A stretch of 64,000 nt of DNA from Aquirufa aurantiipilula (GTDB taxonomy: Bacteria; Bacteroidota; Bacteroidia; Cytophagales; Spirosomataceae), in contig NZ_JAANOG010000001.1 of assembly GCF_019923745.1 (NCBI RefSeq), positions 124,001 to 188,000 of the forward strand, read 5' to 3'. The notes beneath the pieces are model-generated. The model was not told the DNA's origin and did no database searches. It worked only from the letters and a program-made list of their open reading frames with translations. How positions within the stretch are numbered: the first letter of the stretch is position 1; every line of letters begins with the position of its first letter. A program made the position numbers and the translations under genes. Shown here in pieces: positions 10,383-16,165 of the stretch.

Positions 10383-10934
10383 ATGAAAAAAACTATTATT
10401 GGGGCTCTTGTTGGAGGCTTAATTATCTTCTTTTGGCAAGCGGCCTCTCATGTGGCATTCAATCTGCATGAGCCTTCTCAAATGTATACTGCTAGTCAGG
10501 ATACTGTATTGAATGTGTTGACAAAACACCTCAAAAATGAGGGAGGATATATTTTACCACGTATGGAGAATGAGCAAGATATGGCTCAAGCTGAAGAATT
10601 TGCAAAAAAAGCAACGGGTAAACCATGGGCTAGAATTCAATACTACACGGACTACCAAATTTCCATGCAAGACAATATGATTCGAGGATTGGTGGTTGAT
10701 ATCTTCTTGGTATTATTAGTTATTTATCTGATCAAGCAATTTAAAACAGCTAAAATGCGTGATATTTTAGGACTGTGTTTAGTGCTTGCTATTCTAGTAT
10801 TTACCAATTCTCCTTATACCCAACATATCTGGTATCCGGTATTTGATTTGAGAGCTGAACTAATTGACTTACTTGTTTCTTGGGGCCTTTGTGGATTATG
10901 GCTTGGATGGTATTTGCCAAGAAGAGTCGAGTGA
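10383..10934 (+). CDS. Small membrane protein of unknown function
   Basis: 183 aa, not recognised. One N-terminal membrane helix (about 3-20) is followed by an ~80-residue soluble loop containing GGYILPRMENEQD. Three further hydrophobic segments lie near 104-120, 127-142 and 155-176. The polar loop most likely faces the periplasm. It lies 54 bases after the GH105 gene; TAATTTTA at 10353-10360 is close to a -7 element, so it may have its own promoter. Nothing ties it to pectin breakdown. The 3' end runs into the repeat at 10937-11027. Confidence 0.7.
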   Translation: MKKTIIGALVGGLIIFFWQAASHVAFNLHEPSQMYTASQDTVLNVLTKHLKNEGGYILPRMENEQDMAQAEEFAKKATGKPWARIQYYTDYQISMQDNMIRGLVVDIFLVLLVIYLIKQFKTAKMRDILGLCLVLAILVFTNSPYTQHIWYPVFDLRAELIDLLVSWGLCGLWLGWYLPRRVE

Positions 10935-10936
10935 GG

Positions 10937-11027
10937 GATGTAGAATGAAGAATGAAGAATGTAGAATGAAGAATGTAGAATGTAGAGTGAAGAAAAGCTA
11001 AGCAATTCTACATTCTTCATTTTACAT
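10937..11027. repeat. Short degenerate tandem repeat with a 23-nt inverted copy
   Basis: A run built from ATGTAGAATGAAGA-type words occupies about 10937-10996. The segment 10959-10981 is the reverse complement of 11005-11027 with a single mismatch over 23 bases, separated by 23 bases. It sits between two converging genes, where it could act as a bidirectional terminator. The composition is simple and purine-rich on the plus strand. Confidence 0.75.
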
Positions 11028-12306: not shown

Positions 12307-12924
12307 ATGAATCAAGAAAAATACAGTAGGTATCAATTCCTAAAATCCATTGGTTTCAAAGGTTCCGCCCTAATGGCCATTTTGGCAGCTTGTACACGTA
12401 AAGAAGATGCTATTTTAGAACCACTCATTGTCAATAAAAATGGTCAACAAGTAACTTCTTTGGATAGTACTAAAGCCACTCAAGTAGCAAGTAGTACAGG
12501 CTCAGCAGCTGGTAGTACTAGCGGTAGTTCTGGTTCTACTTCGGGTAGTACAAGTGGTAGTACAGCAACATCGGGAACCTTAGTGGGTAAAATAACGACA
12601 GACGAGTTGAATGCCATTAAAAGCTATGTGTTAAAATTGGACCTGGCTTCCACCACAGCCAATGCCTTAAAAACCGCAGGAGGATATATTATTTCAAGTG
12701 GAACAGTTGTAGCTTGTGTTTCTGCTGGTGAATATGTAGCAGCAAAAAACCTTTGCACTCATGAACCCAAGCAACGAATAATTTTCAACAGAACGGAGTA
12801 CTATTGCACCGATCACGGTGCACGTTTTTCATTGGCAGGTCAAGGTTTAAATTCCTTAGGAAGTCGAGGATTAACTATTTATAAAACAGCGAATGATGGT
12901 AAAACACTTGTAATATTTGCATAA
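12307..12924 (+). CDS. Rieske [2Fe-2S] lipoprotein
   Basis: 205 aa. The N-terminus carries a lipobox ILAAC with Cys29, so the protein should be lipid-anchored outside the cytoplasm. Residues about 57-90 are a low-complexity Ser/Gly/Thr linker. The Rieske domain follows with C150-x-H152 (CTH) and C167-x2-H170 (CTDHG), the spacing needed for a two-Cys/two-His [2Fe-2S] centre. Such domains pass single electrons in respiratory or oxygenase chains. It heads a same-strand run with thioredoxin, ApbE, DUF4266 and DUF3570 genes at gaps of 4-9 bases, implying one operon for an extracytoplasmic redox task. Confidence 0.85.
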   Translation: MNQEKYSRYQFLKSIGFKGSALMAILAACTRKEDAILEPLIVNKNGQQVTSLDSTKATQVASSTGSAAGSTSGSSGSTSGSTSGSTATSGTLVGKITTDELNAIKSYVLKLDLASTTANALKTAGGYIISSGTVVACVSAGEYVAAKNLCTHEPKQRIIFNRTEYYCTDHGARFSLAGQGLNSLGSRGLTIYKTANDGKTLVIFA

Positions 12925-12928
12925 TCTT

Positions 12929-13339
12929 ATGACCTTATTATTTCATATATTTTTGAATTTATTGGTTTGGGGCAATGATTTTTCAGTTGCTCAACAAAAT
13001 GCCAAACAGCAACATCGTTTAATTTTATTAAATTTTTCGGGTTCAGATTGGTGTGGACCCTGTATCAAATTGAAAAAAGATGTATTTGAATCTTCTGAAT
13101 TTACAGCCTTCGCTGAGAGCAATCTAGAATTAATTCGTGCTGATTTTCCTCGGTTAAAAAAGAATCAATTGGCTAAAGACCAACAAGCAAAAAACGATGC
13201 TTTGGCCGAAAAGTATAATAGTTCAGGTAAATTTCCTTTGACTGTTTTGCTGAATGATCAGGGTAAAGTTTTGAAAGAATGGGAAGGATACCAACCTTCA
13301 CTTTCTAAATTTTTAGCTGAAATCAAACAATTCCGTTAA
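12929..13339 (+). CDS. Exported thioredoxin-family protein
   Basis: 136 aa from the ATG at 12929, four bases after the Rieske stop; a TTG at 12917 would overlap it and is less likely. A short hydrophobic leader (about 1-22) suggests periplasmic location. The thioredoxin active site SDWCGPCIKLKKDVF has Cys42 and Cys45, and KFPLTVLLNDQGKVL provides the cis-Pro strand and the following beta hairpin. It belongs to the DUF255/thioredoxin_7-like disulfide reductases. In this operon the obvious candidate partner is the two-Cys tail of the DUF4266 peptide, but that is inference. Confidence 0.85.
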   Translation: MTLLFHIFLNLLVWGNDFSVAQQNAKQQHRLILLNFSGSDWCGPCIKLKKDVFESSEFTAFAESNLELIRADFPRLKKNQLAKDQQAKNDALAEKYNSSGKFPLTVLLNDQGKVLKEWEGYQPSLSKFLAEIKQFR

Positions 13340-13343
13340 TCGA

Positions 13344-14285
13344 ATGCCTCTTTTTAAAAGAACTGATTTATTGATGGGTAATCGATTTGATCTGGCGCTT
13401 GTTGGATCTCATGATGATGAAGCAATGGCAGCTTTGGAAAAGGCGGTACATGAAATTCAACGAATTGAACAGTTGCTCAGTACCTATCGTCCTGATTCCC
13501 AAACAAATCGAATCAATGAACAAGCAGGGATTTCTCCTGTAGTAGTAGATCAAGAGGTATTTGATTTGATACAACGGGCACAAAGAATTTCTGATTTAAG
13601 TCAGGGGGCTTTTGATTTGACTTATGGTTCATTGGATAAAAGTCTTTGGAATTTTGATCAAGAAATGACCTCATTGCCTAGTCCAGATAAGGCAAAAAAA
13701 TCAGTTCAGTTAATTGATTATCAACTAATTGAATTGGATTCTAATCAGAGGAGTGTTTTTCTAAAGAAAAAAGGAATGAGAATTGGTTTTGGTGGTATTG
13801 GGAAAGGCTATGCGGCAGATTGTGCCAAGACTGTGTTACAAGGCTTAGGTTTTCAGCATGGCTTAGTGAATGCTTCGGGTGATTTGTGTGCTTGGGGAAA
13901 AAATGAAAATGGTAAATCTTGGTCCATTGGCATTGTTCACCCAGATAATCCTGACCGTATAATCGCCGATTTTGCTCTGAATAATTCAGCTGTAGCAACC
14001 TCTGGTAATTATGAAAAATTTGTCATGATTCAAGGCCTGAAATATTCCCATACCATTGACCCACATACGGGTTATCCCATTCAAGGGATTAAGAGTGTGA
14101 CAGTTTTTGCTCCATTCGCTGAATTGGCTGATGCTTTAACTACTCCATTAGCTGTCATGGGCGTGTCTGTTGGTTTGGATTTAATCAATCAAATACCTGG
14201 TTTAGGTTGTGTTATCATTGACGACAATAATCAGATATTTTACTCAGATAACATTCAGCATGCCTCAATAGGTTTATTACATTAA
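13344..14285 (+). CDS. apbE: FAD:protein FMN transferase (ApbE family)
   Basis: 313 aa. ApbE enzymes attach FMN from FAD to a Thr or Ser of a target protein. Recognisable are TYRPDSQTNRINEQAG, IQRAQRISDLSQGAFDLTYG, RIGFGGIGKGYAADCAK, LVNASGDLCAWG and HTIDPHTGYPIQGI with the metal-binding Asp/Thr segment. No signal peptide or lipobox is visible: the protein begins MPLFKRTDLLMGNRF only 4 bases after the thioredoxin stop. Most ApbE proteins are exported, so this copy may act in the cytoplasm or its real start may differ. No canonical flavinylation motif was seen in the neighbouring proteins. Confidence 0.92.
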   Translation: MPLFKRTDLLMGNRFDLALVGSHDDEAMAALEKAVHEIQRIEQLLSTYRPDSQTNRINEQAGISPVVVDQEVFDLIQRAQRISDLSQGAFDLTYGSLDKSLWNFDQEMTSLPSPDKAKKSVQLIDYQLIELDSNQRSVFLKKKGMRIGFGGIGKGYAADCAKTVLQGLGFQHGLVNASGDLCAWGKNENGKSWSIGIVHPDNPDRIIADFALNNSAVATSGNYEKFVMIQGLKYSHTIDPHTGYPIQGIKSVTVFAPFAELADALTTPLAVMGVSVGLDLINQIPGLGCVIIDDNNQIFYSDNIQHASIGLLH

Positions 14286-14294
14286 AATAACAAT

Positions 14295-14507
14295 ATGAAA
14301 AAATACCATTGGATTGGGTTATTTCTAGGGATTCTTTCGCAATCATGTACTTCGGTTAAGGAGTTTCAGAAAAGCAGAATCAATGATTCGGAGATGGAAT
14401 TGTCATCTAGAAAATCAGAAAAATTTGAGCAAAGTTTTTATCTCTATCGGGAAGGGGCTTCAGGTGCTAATGGTGGAAAGAGTGGAGGAGGATGTGGTTG
14501 TAATTAA
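14295..14507 (+). CDS. DUF4266 small lipoprotein with Cys-Gly-Cys tail
   Basis: 70 aa. A short N-terminal hydrophobic stretch leads to ILSQSC (Cys18), a plausible relaxed lipobox. The mature ~52 residues are polar (EFQKSRINDSEMELSSRKSE) and end in a glycine-rich tail from REGASGANGG to GGGCGCN, with Cys67 and Cys69. This tail is the hallmark of the DUF4266 family. The two Cys could bind metal or form a disulfide handled by the upstream thioredoxin. DUF4266 and DUF3570 genes are typically paired, as here (9-base gap). Molecular function unknown. Confidence 0.85.
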   Translation: MKKYHWIGLFLGILSQSCTSVKEFQKSRINDSEMELSSRKSEKFEQSFYLYREGASGANGGKSGGGCGCN

Positions 14508-14516
14508 TCGAATGTC

Positions 14517-15764
14517 ATGAAGAAAGTAATTTTAAGTATAGGACTATATTGTTCATTATTACAAGGGGTGCGTGCTCAAGAGTATTTGACATTCAATCCC
14601 AAAAACTTGACTACACGCTCTTCCGATAGTTCTTCGAATTATCAGAAAAGAACGATCAAATTTGAAGAAGCCAATATTGTCAGTGGGTACTATTTCCAAA
14701 ATGGAAATAACTCGGCTATAACGGGTGGAATAGGAACTGAGCGATTGACAGATTTTGCTAATTCATTTGAATTACGTTTTTCAAAATTAGATCGATATAA
14801 CCGATTACATAGTTTCACGGCGGATATGAATGTGGATTTTTATTCCTCCGCTTCTTCCGATAAAATTGATCCATTGACGATTTCCTCCGCATCGAAAAAG
14901 GATACGCATATCTATCCAAGTTTATCTTGGTCAGTGAAAGATGATGTTTTGAGAACAACTCATGGTTTCAGCTATTCTTATTCTACAGAATACGATTATA
15001 AATCACATGGGTTTAATGCCTTTATTACCAAACTTTCCAAGGATAAAAATCGAGAATTCTCGATTAAAGGAGGCGCTTTTTTGGATACTTATATGGCTAT
15101 TTTACCTTCGGAATTAAGGCCATTGACTTATCCTTCTGGGTCAGAAGGTGATAAAAGGGGAATTGCGTATAAACCTAGAAACTCCTACAATGCATCGTTT
15201 TCTTTGTCGCAGGTTATTAACCAACGTTTACAAGTAATGGCCATCATTGAGCCAAGTTATCAAGAAGGCTTATTGAGTACTCCCTTTCATCGGGTATACT
15301 TTACCAATGGAAATGAAACAGTTGAAAAATTGCCAGGAACTCGATTTAAATTGCCGGTTGGATTGCGATTGAGTTATTTCGCAGGAGATAGAACGGTTAT
15401 TCGTGCTTTTTATCGTGCTTATGTAGATGATTGGGGAATGACAGCACATACGACTAATTTGGAAGTCCCTTTTAAAATTACTCCATTCTTTTCCATCAGT
15501 CCATTTTACCGCTTTAATTCACAAACGGCAGTGAAATACTTTAAAGCATATGCCCAGCATCAGCCTTCAGAAGTATTTTATACTTCTGATTATGATATTT
15601 CTAGTTTTACGAGTCAGTTCGTAGGAATGGGTATACGCTTGGCCCCTCCAGGTGGTATTGCTGGATTATTGAACTGGAGTTCCTTAGAAGTTCGATATGG
15701 CTATTATTCAAGGTCCAATGGCATGTATGGCCATAGTATTTCAGCACATATTAAGATTAAATAA
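14517..15764 (+). CDS. DUF3570 outer-membrane beta-barrel protein
   Basis: 415 aa. Signal peptide (about 1-20, ending VRAQ). The rest alternates aromatic and polar residues in repeated strands (for example FELRFSKLDRYNRLHSFTAD, GLRLSYFAGDRTVIRAFYRAY) and ends in the strand GHSISAHIKIK, all typical of an outer-membrane barrel. DUF3570 proteins have no established activity. It is the last gene of the Rieske/thioredoxin/ApbE/DUF4266 run, so it may be the pore or outer-membrane anchor of that system. A strong bidirectional terminator follows immediately. Confidence 0.87.
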   Translation: MKKVILSIGLYCSLLQGVRAQEYLTFNPKNLTTRSSDSSSNYQKRTIKFEEANIVSGYYFQNGNNSAITGGIGTERLTDFANSFELRFSKLDRYNRLHSFTADMNVDFYSSASSDKIDPLTISSASKKDTHIYPSLSWSVKDDVLRTTHGFSYSYSTEYDYKSHGFNAFITKLSKDKNREFSIKGGAFLDTYMAILPSELRPLTYPSGSEGDKRGIAYKPRNSYNASFSLSQVINQRLQVMAIIEPSYQEGLLSTPFHRVYFTNGNETVEKLPGTRFKLPVGLRLSYFAGDRTVIRAFYRAYVDDWGMTAHTTNLEVPFKITPFFSISPFYRFNSQTAVKYFKAYAQHQPSEVFYTSDYDISSFTSQFVGMGIRLAPPGGIAGLLNWSSLEVRYGYYSRSNGMYGHSISAHIKIK

Positions 15765-15795
15765 AAAAAATCTCCCAGCAATGGGAGATTTTTTT
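15763..15795. terminator. Bidirectional terminator between the DUF3570 gene and tmRNA
   Basis: Stem 15769-15777 (AATCTCCCA) pairs with 15782-15790 around the loop GCAA. A-rich and T-rich flanks let it work on both strands, ending the DUF3570 operon on plus and the tmRNA on minus. Confidence 0.88.
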
Positions 15796-15796
15796 G

Positions 15797-16165
15797 TGGA
15801 GTCGGAGGGATTCGAACCCTCGTCCAAACCTAGCGAACAATAGCTTTCTACACGTTTAGCTGTGATTATTTTTCGATCAAAAGCGGGTTCACATCAGACC
15901 CAAACTCTCAACTTATCCTCTGGATACTAACAAGCCCGTAGAGAAATTCGAACTTATCGACTCTGCATGTCGACGCTCAGATGCCCTCCTCGGCAGAGTT
16001 TGGAGAAGGCTGAACGATGGCAAATTGATTAATCTCTAAGATTAAGCAGCCATGGCATACTGTGTATTGCCAGTTATAATTCGAAGGTTTTTTTAACAGG
16101 AAATGCCTACAACTCCCGACGTGCTTACCACCGACCGACATAAGCTGTCAAAACCGGTCGACCCC
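15797..16165 (-). ncRNA. ssrA: tmRNA (transfer-messenger RNA)
   Basis: The tRNA-like ends pair: 5' GGGGTCG (16165-16159) with 3' CGACTCC (15804-15798). The T arm is GAGGGTTCGAATCCCTC, and CCA is not encoded. The tag frame starts at a GGC resume codon and reads GNTQYAMAA then TAA, a tag form close to the YAMAA/YALAA tags of Bacteroidota. The RNA rescues stalled ribosomes and marks the truncated product for proteolysis. It has its own promoter (16178-16209) and shares a bidirectional terminator with the DUF3570 gene. Confidence 0.95.

Follow-up and report, generated by a model that had tools for sequence, protein, structure and literature searches.

What could bring together, in one short run of genes, a Rieske-type iron-sulfur lipoprotein, a thioredoxin-like protein, the flavin transferase ApbE, the small lipoprotein DUF4266 and the DUF3570 protein? 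The five genes occupy positions 12307 to 15764 of a 64,000-nucleotide stretch of DNA (the window) from a freshwater Aquirufa-like bacterium. Our reading is that the module is a haem-free outer-membrane thiol/flavin electron relay, to which we give a probability of about one half. In such a relay ApbE would attach flavin mononucleotide (FMN) to two serines in a loop of DUF3570 on the extracellular side, probably in the cytoplasm before export of the protein. The single DsbD of the cell would reduce the thioredoxin in the periplasm, and the thioredoxin would in turn reduce the Cys-Gly-Cys tail of DUF4266, a lipoprotein of the outer membrane. The flexible Gly-rich tail would then hand electrons to the FMN on DUF3570, which would deliver them at or beyond the outer membrane, with the Rieske lipoprotein as an added one-electron carrier in many Bacteroidia. 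The cell would probably benefit by being able to reduce an acceptor outside the cytoplasm, perhaps ferric iron or some other metal.

Two sets of loci were compared with the window. The first comprised 80 loci chosen by DUF4266, plus the window; 11 came from related genomes and 69 from a sample of the phylum (56 new loci outside family f36 and 13 from f36). The second comprised the best 80 of at least 585 matches, named loci chosen by DUF3570. The choosing gene is present by construction in its own set. With five duplicates dropped there were 156 distinct loci including the window, i.e. 137 from Bacteroidia, 13 from Chlorobia and six termed 'other' (L118 to L123). The Chlorobia label denotes the 13 f36 loci, and the FMO antenna protein family PF02327 is present in 13 of 13 of these genomes. 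Across the 156 loci DUF4266 was found in 156, DUF3570 in 155, ApbE in 150, the thioredoxin in 146, the Rieske gene in 57 and VIT1 in 31. The neighbourhood comparison proposed in a preliminary description of this DNA thus finds the core together, with ApbE, DUF3570, thioredoxin and DUF4266 all present in 129 of the 137 Bacteroidia loci (ApbE in 134), and the Rieske gene optional. DUF4266 and DUF3570 have the same distribution, occurring in the same 11 of 59 related genomes and in 9 of 37 within the genus. This, together with the co-occurrence of the core, led us to reject a chance grouping of the genes. DUF4266 was present in 103 of 392 sampled genomes of the phylum (29 of 179 genera), and among the matches listed for DUF3570 the closest named relative is Aquirufa rosea (87%). 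The genus cluster is patchy and occupies two sites, with an M20-peptidase-like gene as neighbour in six genomes and a 3-keto-disaccharide hydrolase gene in three, the window included; the two insertion sites suggest transfer or rearrangement.

The core system is already known. The preliminary description held that no such system had been described, and this was mistaken: in the parts of the 2021 paper of Meheust et al. available to us (PMC8238504), core clusters of ApbE, DUF3570, a thioredoxin-like protein and DUF4266 are reported, together with ApbE-dependent flavinylation of one DUF3570. According to those parts there are 285 clusters with DsbD, typically with ApbE, DUF3570 (227), the thioredoxin-like protein (183) and DUF4266 (221), and 316 without a neighbouring DsbD. 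Redox cycling of the CXC tail and hybrid thiol/flavin electron transfer are proposed there. The DUF3570 of C. luteolum (Chlorobium) was flavinylated by its ApbE at two [S/T]GA[S/T] sites, and both predicted serines had to be replaced to abolish flavinylation (PMC8238504, same parts). The window has all four of these core components, among them a DUF4266 that ends in CXC, and it resembles the 316 published clusters lacking DsbD, not the DsbD subset. The terms 'Rieske' and 'barrel' are absent from the main text of PMC8238504 in the form available, and the accessible section of a 2024 follow-up on the structures of other flavinylated domains (PMC11334425) does not treat DUF3570. Our literature search returned no paper joining ApbE flavinylation with a Rieske protein, none on DUF5777/PF19089 and none on Bacteroidetes flavinylation with DsbD at the outer membrane; among the papers searched DUF3570 or DUF4266 is named in one, PMC8238504. 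We add to this a Rieske partner, flavin sites of a Ser variant with a predicted position on the outer face, and an ApbE without a signal peptide.

The flavin sites are central to the reading. The known ApbE motif is D-x-x-[S/T]-G-A-[S/T] and is at least seven residues long (PMC12052999, seen in part). Whereas C. luteolum DUF3570 has [S/T]GA[S/T], the window protein has SSAS twice, at residues 110-113 and 123-126, with S113 and S126 as acceptors. It lacks the two published motifs, which PMC8238504 gives as conserved. Clusters are assigned there by their key genes, and the membership of the window is by gene content only. In 137 distinct Bacteroidia rows of the alignment A112 is kept in 137, S113 in 137 and S126 in 133. 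Ser occupies position 111 in 135 of these rows; at position 124, 109 rows have Ser and 23 have Gly, so that both sites are mostly [S/T]SAS in Bacteroidia, not [S/T]GAS. In the Chlorobia rows the first site is D-x-x-[S/T]-G-A-S in 14 of 14. The Ser variant is not restricted to Bacteroidia, because two of the 'other' loci (L118 and L119), whose genomes also carry FMO and an ApbE with a signal peptide, show Ser-type sites. In a 46-row alignment that includes distant members, the 14 nearly invariant positions include A112, S113 and S126, and 10 others are invariant. Judged from the sequences, the SSAS sites of DUF3570 are likely flavinylated.

Where these sites lie was examined with an AlphaFold2 model built on the 46-row alignment. 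The model (predicted local distance difference test, pLDDT, 86.2) is a barrel that we read as having 16 strands after merging short breaks. VIA-align matched it to the BamA model 9a2o (Z 21.2, root-mean-square deviation (rmsd) 3.7, 280 aligned) and its residues 43-415 to the OmpC model 9a32 (Z 16.6, rmsd 3.5, 269 aligned); comparison with the crystal structure 4y25 gave Z 18.8. A DUF3570 profile searched against the PDB sequences gave chance-level matches only, near E 0.6. DUF3570 is predicted from the model to be an outer-membrane beta-barrel, with a closed fold like that of solved barrels. Porin barrels have both ends in the periplasm. On the assumption that this holds for DUF3570, the stretch 111-128 with both sites becomes an extracellular loop (L2), and both flavin sites are predicted to be extracellular. 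Motifs were scored with Gly or Ser in the Bacteroidia rows, and as the strict Gly motif in the Chlorobia and 'other' rows. Of the 137 Bacteroidia rows, 124 have exactly two motifs ahead of strand 4, each of them in L2, and four rows have three. Among the 14 Chlorobia rows eight have both motifs in L2, and five have one in L2 and one in the neighbouring extracellular loop L1, on the same predicted face, which fits the outer-face placement. None of the 299 motif places is in strands 1-3 or turn T1, and six are further along the barrel. Also in keeping with an outer-face placement, conservation is higher in the presumed extracellular loops than in the periplasmic turns (0.547 against 0.419, p 0.001).

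If the barrel carries flavin, where does it acquire it? The window ApbE scores 273.3 bits against a curated cut-off of 25.6, and has neither a signal peptide nor a lipidation site before its MG motif. Using a crude test based on hydropathy only, not SignalP, no signal peptide was found in 121 of 150 distinct cluster ApbEs (110 of 134 in Bacteroidia and 11 of 12 in Chlorobia; the L223 protein is a fragment). Signal peptides were called on 24 Bacteroidia ApbEs and on four of four from the 'other' loci, and three of the Bacteroidia calls and one Chlorobia call are borderline. Within the Bacteroidia rows having two scored sites, Gly at the second site goes with a clear signal peptide on ApbE (16 of 17) and is rare where there is none (6 of 106). 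The three borderline rows have Ser at that position, and eight rows lacking two scored sites were excluded. The Chlorobia rows break this rule, with no signal peptide yet Gly. In the available parts of the published work, cytoplasmic ApbEs are known (PMC12052999), and expressed DUF3570 was mostly in the lysate pellet and was purified denatured, yet was flavinylated (PMC8238504). A natively folded barrel is thus apparently not needed for flavinylation, and the ApbEs lacking a signal peptide suggest that DUF3570 is modified before export.

The thiol branch is carried by the thioredoxin and DUF4266. The best NCBIfam match of the thioredoxin is DsbH (5.1e-23, 82 bits), below the cut-off of 190. 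A CGC tail is present in 133 of 134 distinct DUF4266 50-mers. This conserved tail beside a thioredoxin supports the earlier view of an extracytoplasmic redox module; the reduction of the tail by the thioredoxin and the passage of electrons that went with that view stay conjectural. The genome of the window has one DsbD match, a full-length open reading frame on another contig (C34). A gene of the DsbD cluster is found in 10 of the 13 Chlorobia loci (one representative, L126, was Pfam-checked). The DSBD profile found eight loci and also catches proteins that are thioredoxin only; of five checked four were true, giving Pfam-confirmed DsbD beside the cluster in four Bacteroidia loci (L151, L157, L159 and L174). 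The Rieske gene follows it after 132-144 bases in L157 and L159. As a separate observation, DUF4266 residues 53-59 (14451-14471), E-G-A-S-G-A-N, resemble the ApbE target motif with the acceptor Ser/Thr changed to Asn, and SGAN or AGAN occurs in 100 of 134 distinct tails. The likeness may be chance in a Gly-rich tail.

The Rieske protein begins MNQEKYSRYQFLK, with the lipobox LAAC and Cys29, followed by a Ser/Gly/Thr-rich linker at about 52-92 and the ligands CTH (150-152) and CTDH (167-170). As a single sequence it is below the Pfam threshold (E 0.0019, 18.5 bits against the curated 20.3). Its identity is nevertheless secure because the profile built from 22 homologues finds solved Rieske proteins (5cxm at E 9.8e-15, plus further ones). 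The predicted model (pLDDT 70.6) resembles Rieske ferredoxins, with a best Foldseek E of 6.6e-4. It shares the CxH...CxxH ligands and the fold of Rieske-type ferredoxins and PetC3-like Rieske proteins (2qpz, 5cxm), but unlike these it is probably lipid-anchored on its Ser/Gly-rich linker. Rieske proteins of the bc1 type carry extra disulfide cysteines; the window motif is without them, and this type was rejected. A Rieske match at least 6.6 kb before a Chlorobia cluster (L133) belongs to the b6f/bc1 type, its best match being a Kuenenia Rieske, and was excluded from the counts.

A Rieske gene is present in 57 of the 137 Bacteroidia loci and in none of the 13 Chlorobia loci. Being optional, it is not essential to the core, and we rejected it as a core member. 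Where present it lies directly upstream of the thioredoxin gene on the same strand in 55 of 57 cases. It is found in nine of nine clusters of the genus, and over 75 distinct named loci in Spirosomataceae (7/8), Leadbetterellaceae (6/6), Cytophagaceae (3/3), Flectobacillaceae (1/1), Sphingobacteriaceae (13/26), Chitinophagaceae (3/14), loci with no family name (2/13) and others (0/4). The Rieske partner is thus a lineage-specific yet widespread addition to the core. Its presence requires at least 18 changes on the 134-row DUF3570 tree, too many for its gain to be dated there. Neither is it exclusive to the DUF3570/DUF4266 cluster: the Rieske profile also matches two further Rieske lipoproteins in the genome of the window, and gives at least one match in 27 of 28 genus genomes that lack the cluster.

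These other Rieske lipoproteins have their own setting. A second redox operon in the same genome (L224 3264-6836, on G000:C24, minus strand) has two tandem Rieske lipoproteins, a DUF5777 beta-barrel, a YceI protein and a 360-residue lipoprotein with three haem-binding motifs (CTSCH, CAMSGCH and CIGCH). A Rieske gene adjoins a YceI gene in another genome too (G039, L226). Going by the single genome with both modules, the Rieske lipoprotein would partner outer-membrane redox modules in general, one based on flavin and thiols and the other on haem. Elsewhere (L036 5014-5508) a Rieske homologue has one Cys ligand changed to Ser (SPNH), and the neighbouring barrel lacks the usual sites (ASAS, STPS).

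The N-termini bear on export. Over 22 rows the Rieske N-terminus has an invariant Arg (R8) followed by Tyr in the window and by Tyr or Lys in most other homologues, with no twin Arg; the genome has a TatC. The Bacteroidota surface lipoprotein export signal is C-X-K-(D/E)2-X following the lipidated Cys (PMC5080379, seen in part). The window protein reads C-TRKEDA, and 11 readable SusD N-termini of relatives (from 30 loci) show a different pattern. The mean number of acidic residues following the Cys is 1.49 in 57 Rieske proteins (4 of 61 loci having been dropped as duplicates or unread) and 0.77 in 127 DUF4266 proteins (p 5.7e-6).

A number of points weigh against the relay. At both window sites the canonical Gly of the ApbE motif is replaced by Ser; in the part of PMC12052999 available, changing this Gly to Ala in a Klebsiella protein gave about 50% flavinylation and Ser is not reported. 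Five of the 137 Bacteroidia rows have no match to [ST][GS]A[ST] and four have only one. A cytoplasmic ApbE modifying a Sec-exported barrel is unusual. Conservation in the presumed extracellular loops is no higher than in the strands (0.547 against 0.539, p 0.26), and in loop L4 it is poor. The site loop is of low confidence, with pLDDT below 50 at 113-116 and 119-127, so that the loop may lie outside the barrel or fold into its lumen. There is no DsbD beside the cluster in the window, and the Rieske gene is absent from 80 of 137 Bacteroidia loci. The flavinylation of the SSAS sites, the direction and order of electron flow, the acceptor and the role of the Rieske protein are all points that we infer from genes and models.

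Other readings must be set against these same data. Tentatively, a true conduit across the outer membrane is possible, in which the CGC tail would reach the periplasmic mouth or the lumen of the barrel and reduce two FMNs in the loop, the barrel having been flavinylated by the cytoplasmic ApbE and exported with its cofactors, and the Rieske protein would be the final or an intermediate carrier. The conserved acceptor serines also bear on whether the barrel is still modified at all in this lineage. The change of Gly to Ser at both sites might have ended flavinylation, leaving ApbE to serve another substrate, and both the SSAS sequences and the lack of a signal peptide on ApbE would agree with that. 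Yet sites released from function should drift, whereas the two serines persist in 137 and 133 of the 137 Bacteroidia rows and ApbE is retained in 134 of 137 Bacteroidia loci; moreover none of the 25 genus genomes examined yielded an FMN_bind protein, and of the three ApbE matches in the genome of the window the two further ones may serve other targets. We consider this loss improbable. Much the same improbability attaches to envelope thiol quality control, where the thioredoxin and DUF4266 would act on outer-membrane or surface proteins as a reductase or isomerase, with the flavin barrel as oxidant or electron sink. The DsbH match, albeit below its cut-off, and the DsbD neighbours in some relatives are consistent with such a role, but the patchy distribution (11 of 59 relatives) is unlike that of a general maintenance function, and both flavin sites on the predicted outer face of the barrel would be left unexplained.

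Metal handling is unlikely too, if less so than these last two. Here the CGC tail would bind a thiophilic or transition metal at the outer membrane and be kept reduced by the thioredoxin, while the flavin barrel and the Rieske protein would set the redox state of the metal for uptake or efflux. VIT1 lies near 31 of the 156 distinct loci, on either strand (two representatives were Pfam-checked), and 25 VIT1 clusters are reported in the part of PMC8238504 available. In clade f25 a response regulator and kinase are downstream of the cluster, with a resistance-nodulation-division (RND) pump beyond them; the L109 pump exceeds the CusA/CzcA cut-off, and the best matches of the L091 regulator and kinase are heavy-metal types, below cut-offs. 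However, it is mainly in one clade that the RND arrangement is seen, a scan of 10 other window proteins found no metal transporter (three of them form an MFS/HlyD/OEP efflux set), and a metal-binding tail alone leaves the conserved flavinylation sites unexplained. The earlier suggestion that metal passes through the barrel is not directly supported, there being only metal-transport genes near some relatives' clusters. Because VIT1 and RND genes are near the clusters of relatives, yet no metal transporter is among those 10 proteins, we prefer the electron relay with metals only as a guess; metal reduction is our best guess for the acceptor function. The barrel and the Rieske protein had also been seen as a passage. 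The barrel would be a probable flavin carrier rather than only a pore, the link between it and ApbE had been missed, and the Rieske protein is optional.

MtrCAB-type porin-cytochrome conduits combine redox cofactors with an outer-membrane barrel. Common to both would be a barrel with such cofactors as a possible route for electrons across or onto the outer membrane. The five-gene module differs in having no multihaem cytochrome, and thiols with covalent FMN would replace the haems. If the thiol/flavin relay is correct, it would be an alternative to multihaem cytochromes for taking electrons to the outer membrane or through it, and a common one in this phylum. It predicts FMN on the two named serines, ApbE acting before export, and a motif that tolerates Ser in place of Gly.

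The features of the locus are collected in Table 1.

Table 1. Positions in the window of the five genes, the predicted site loop and the adjoining hairpin. FAD, flavin adenine dinucleotide.
Feature	Position	Strand	Basis
Rieske-type [2Fe-2S] lipoprotein, 205 residues	12307..12924	+	sequence, 22-homologue profile, model
Secreted thioredoxin-like protein, 136 residues, WCGPC active site, N-terminal hydrophobic stretch	12929..13339	+	Pfam
ApbE FAD:protein FMN transferase, 313 residues, without signal peptide or lipobox	13344..14285	+	Pfam, N-terminus
DUF4266 small lipoprotein, 70 residues, probable lipidation at Cys18, C-terminus GGGCGCN	14295..14507	+	Pfam, tail conservation
DUF3570 outer-membrane beta-barrel (predicted), 415 residues, predicted acceptor serines S113/S126	14517..15764	+	Pfam, model, motifs
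DUF3570 codons 110-126, loop with both predicted flavinylation sites	14844..14894	+	sequence, model
Nearly palindromic terminator-like hairpin between DUF3570 and the convergent tmRNA gene	15764..15795	- (as listed by the scan)	terminator scan

All five reading frames are intact and on one strand with intergenic gaps of 4, 4, 9 and 9 bases, as originally described. The Pfam E-values are 4.3e-11 (Thioredoxin_2), 1e-10 (Thioredoxin_7), 3e-81 (ApbE), 5.3e-19 (DUF4266) and 9.1e-29 (DUF3570). For the thioredoxin we rejected the mechanical open reading frame start at TTG 12917, since the ATG at 12929 suits the gap better. DUF4266 had been given as a 52-residue lipopeptide ending GGGCGCN; the tail is right, and the mature length is 53 if Cys18 is lipidated. 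The strong terminator said to end the operon is present as a hairpin, but the scan lists it in the direction of the transfer-messenger RNA (tmRNA) gene, on the minus strand. Being nearly palindromic it may serve both the DUF3570 side and the tmRNA side, and the operon's own terminator is only putative. Terminator-like sites overall number 5, against 3.2 expected.

Some variation in the surroundings of the cluster was seen in relatives. A two-component pair directly precedes it in eight loci of Sphingobacteriales (L169, L171, L175, L176, L183, L184, L192 and L205), and the L171 kinase exceeds the PorY family cut-off (440 against 350 bits). Two DUF3570 genes are present per locus in L136, L193 and L218, and the ApbE gene is placed in a different order in L172, L174 and L205. 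In the window the tmRNA gene (15796-16165, minus strand) abuts the hairpin with its end and has the predicted tag GNTQYAMAA, ending MAA. Upstream of the module, at 10864-11001, there is an intergenic repeat-like sequence with the reading frame EECRMKNEECRMKN.

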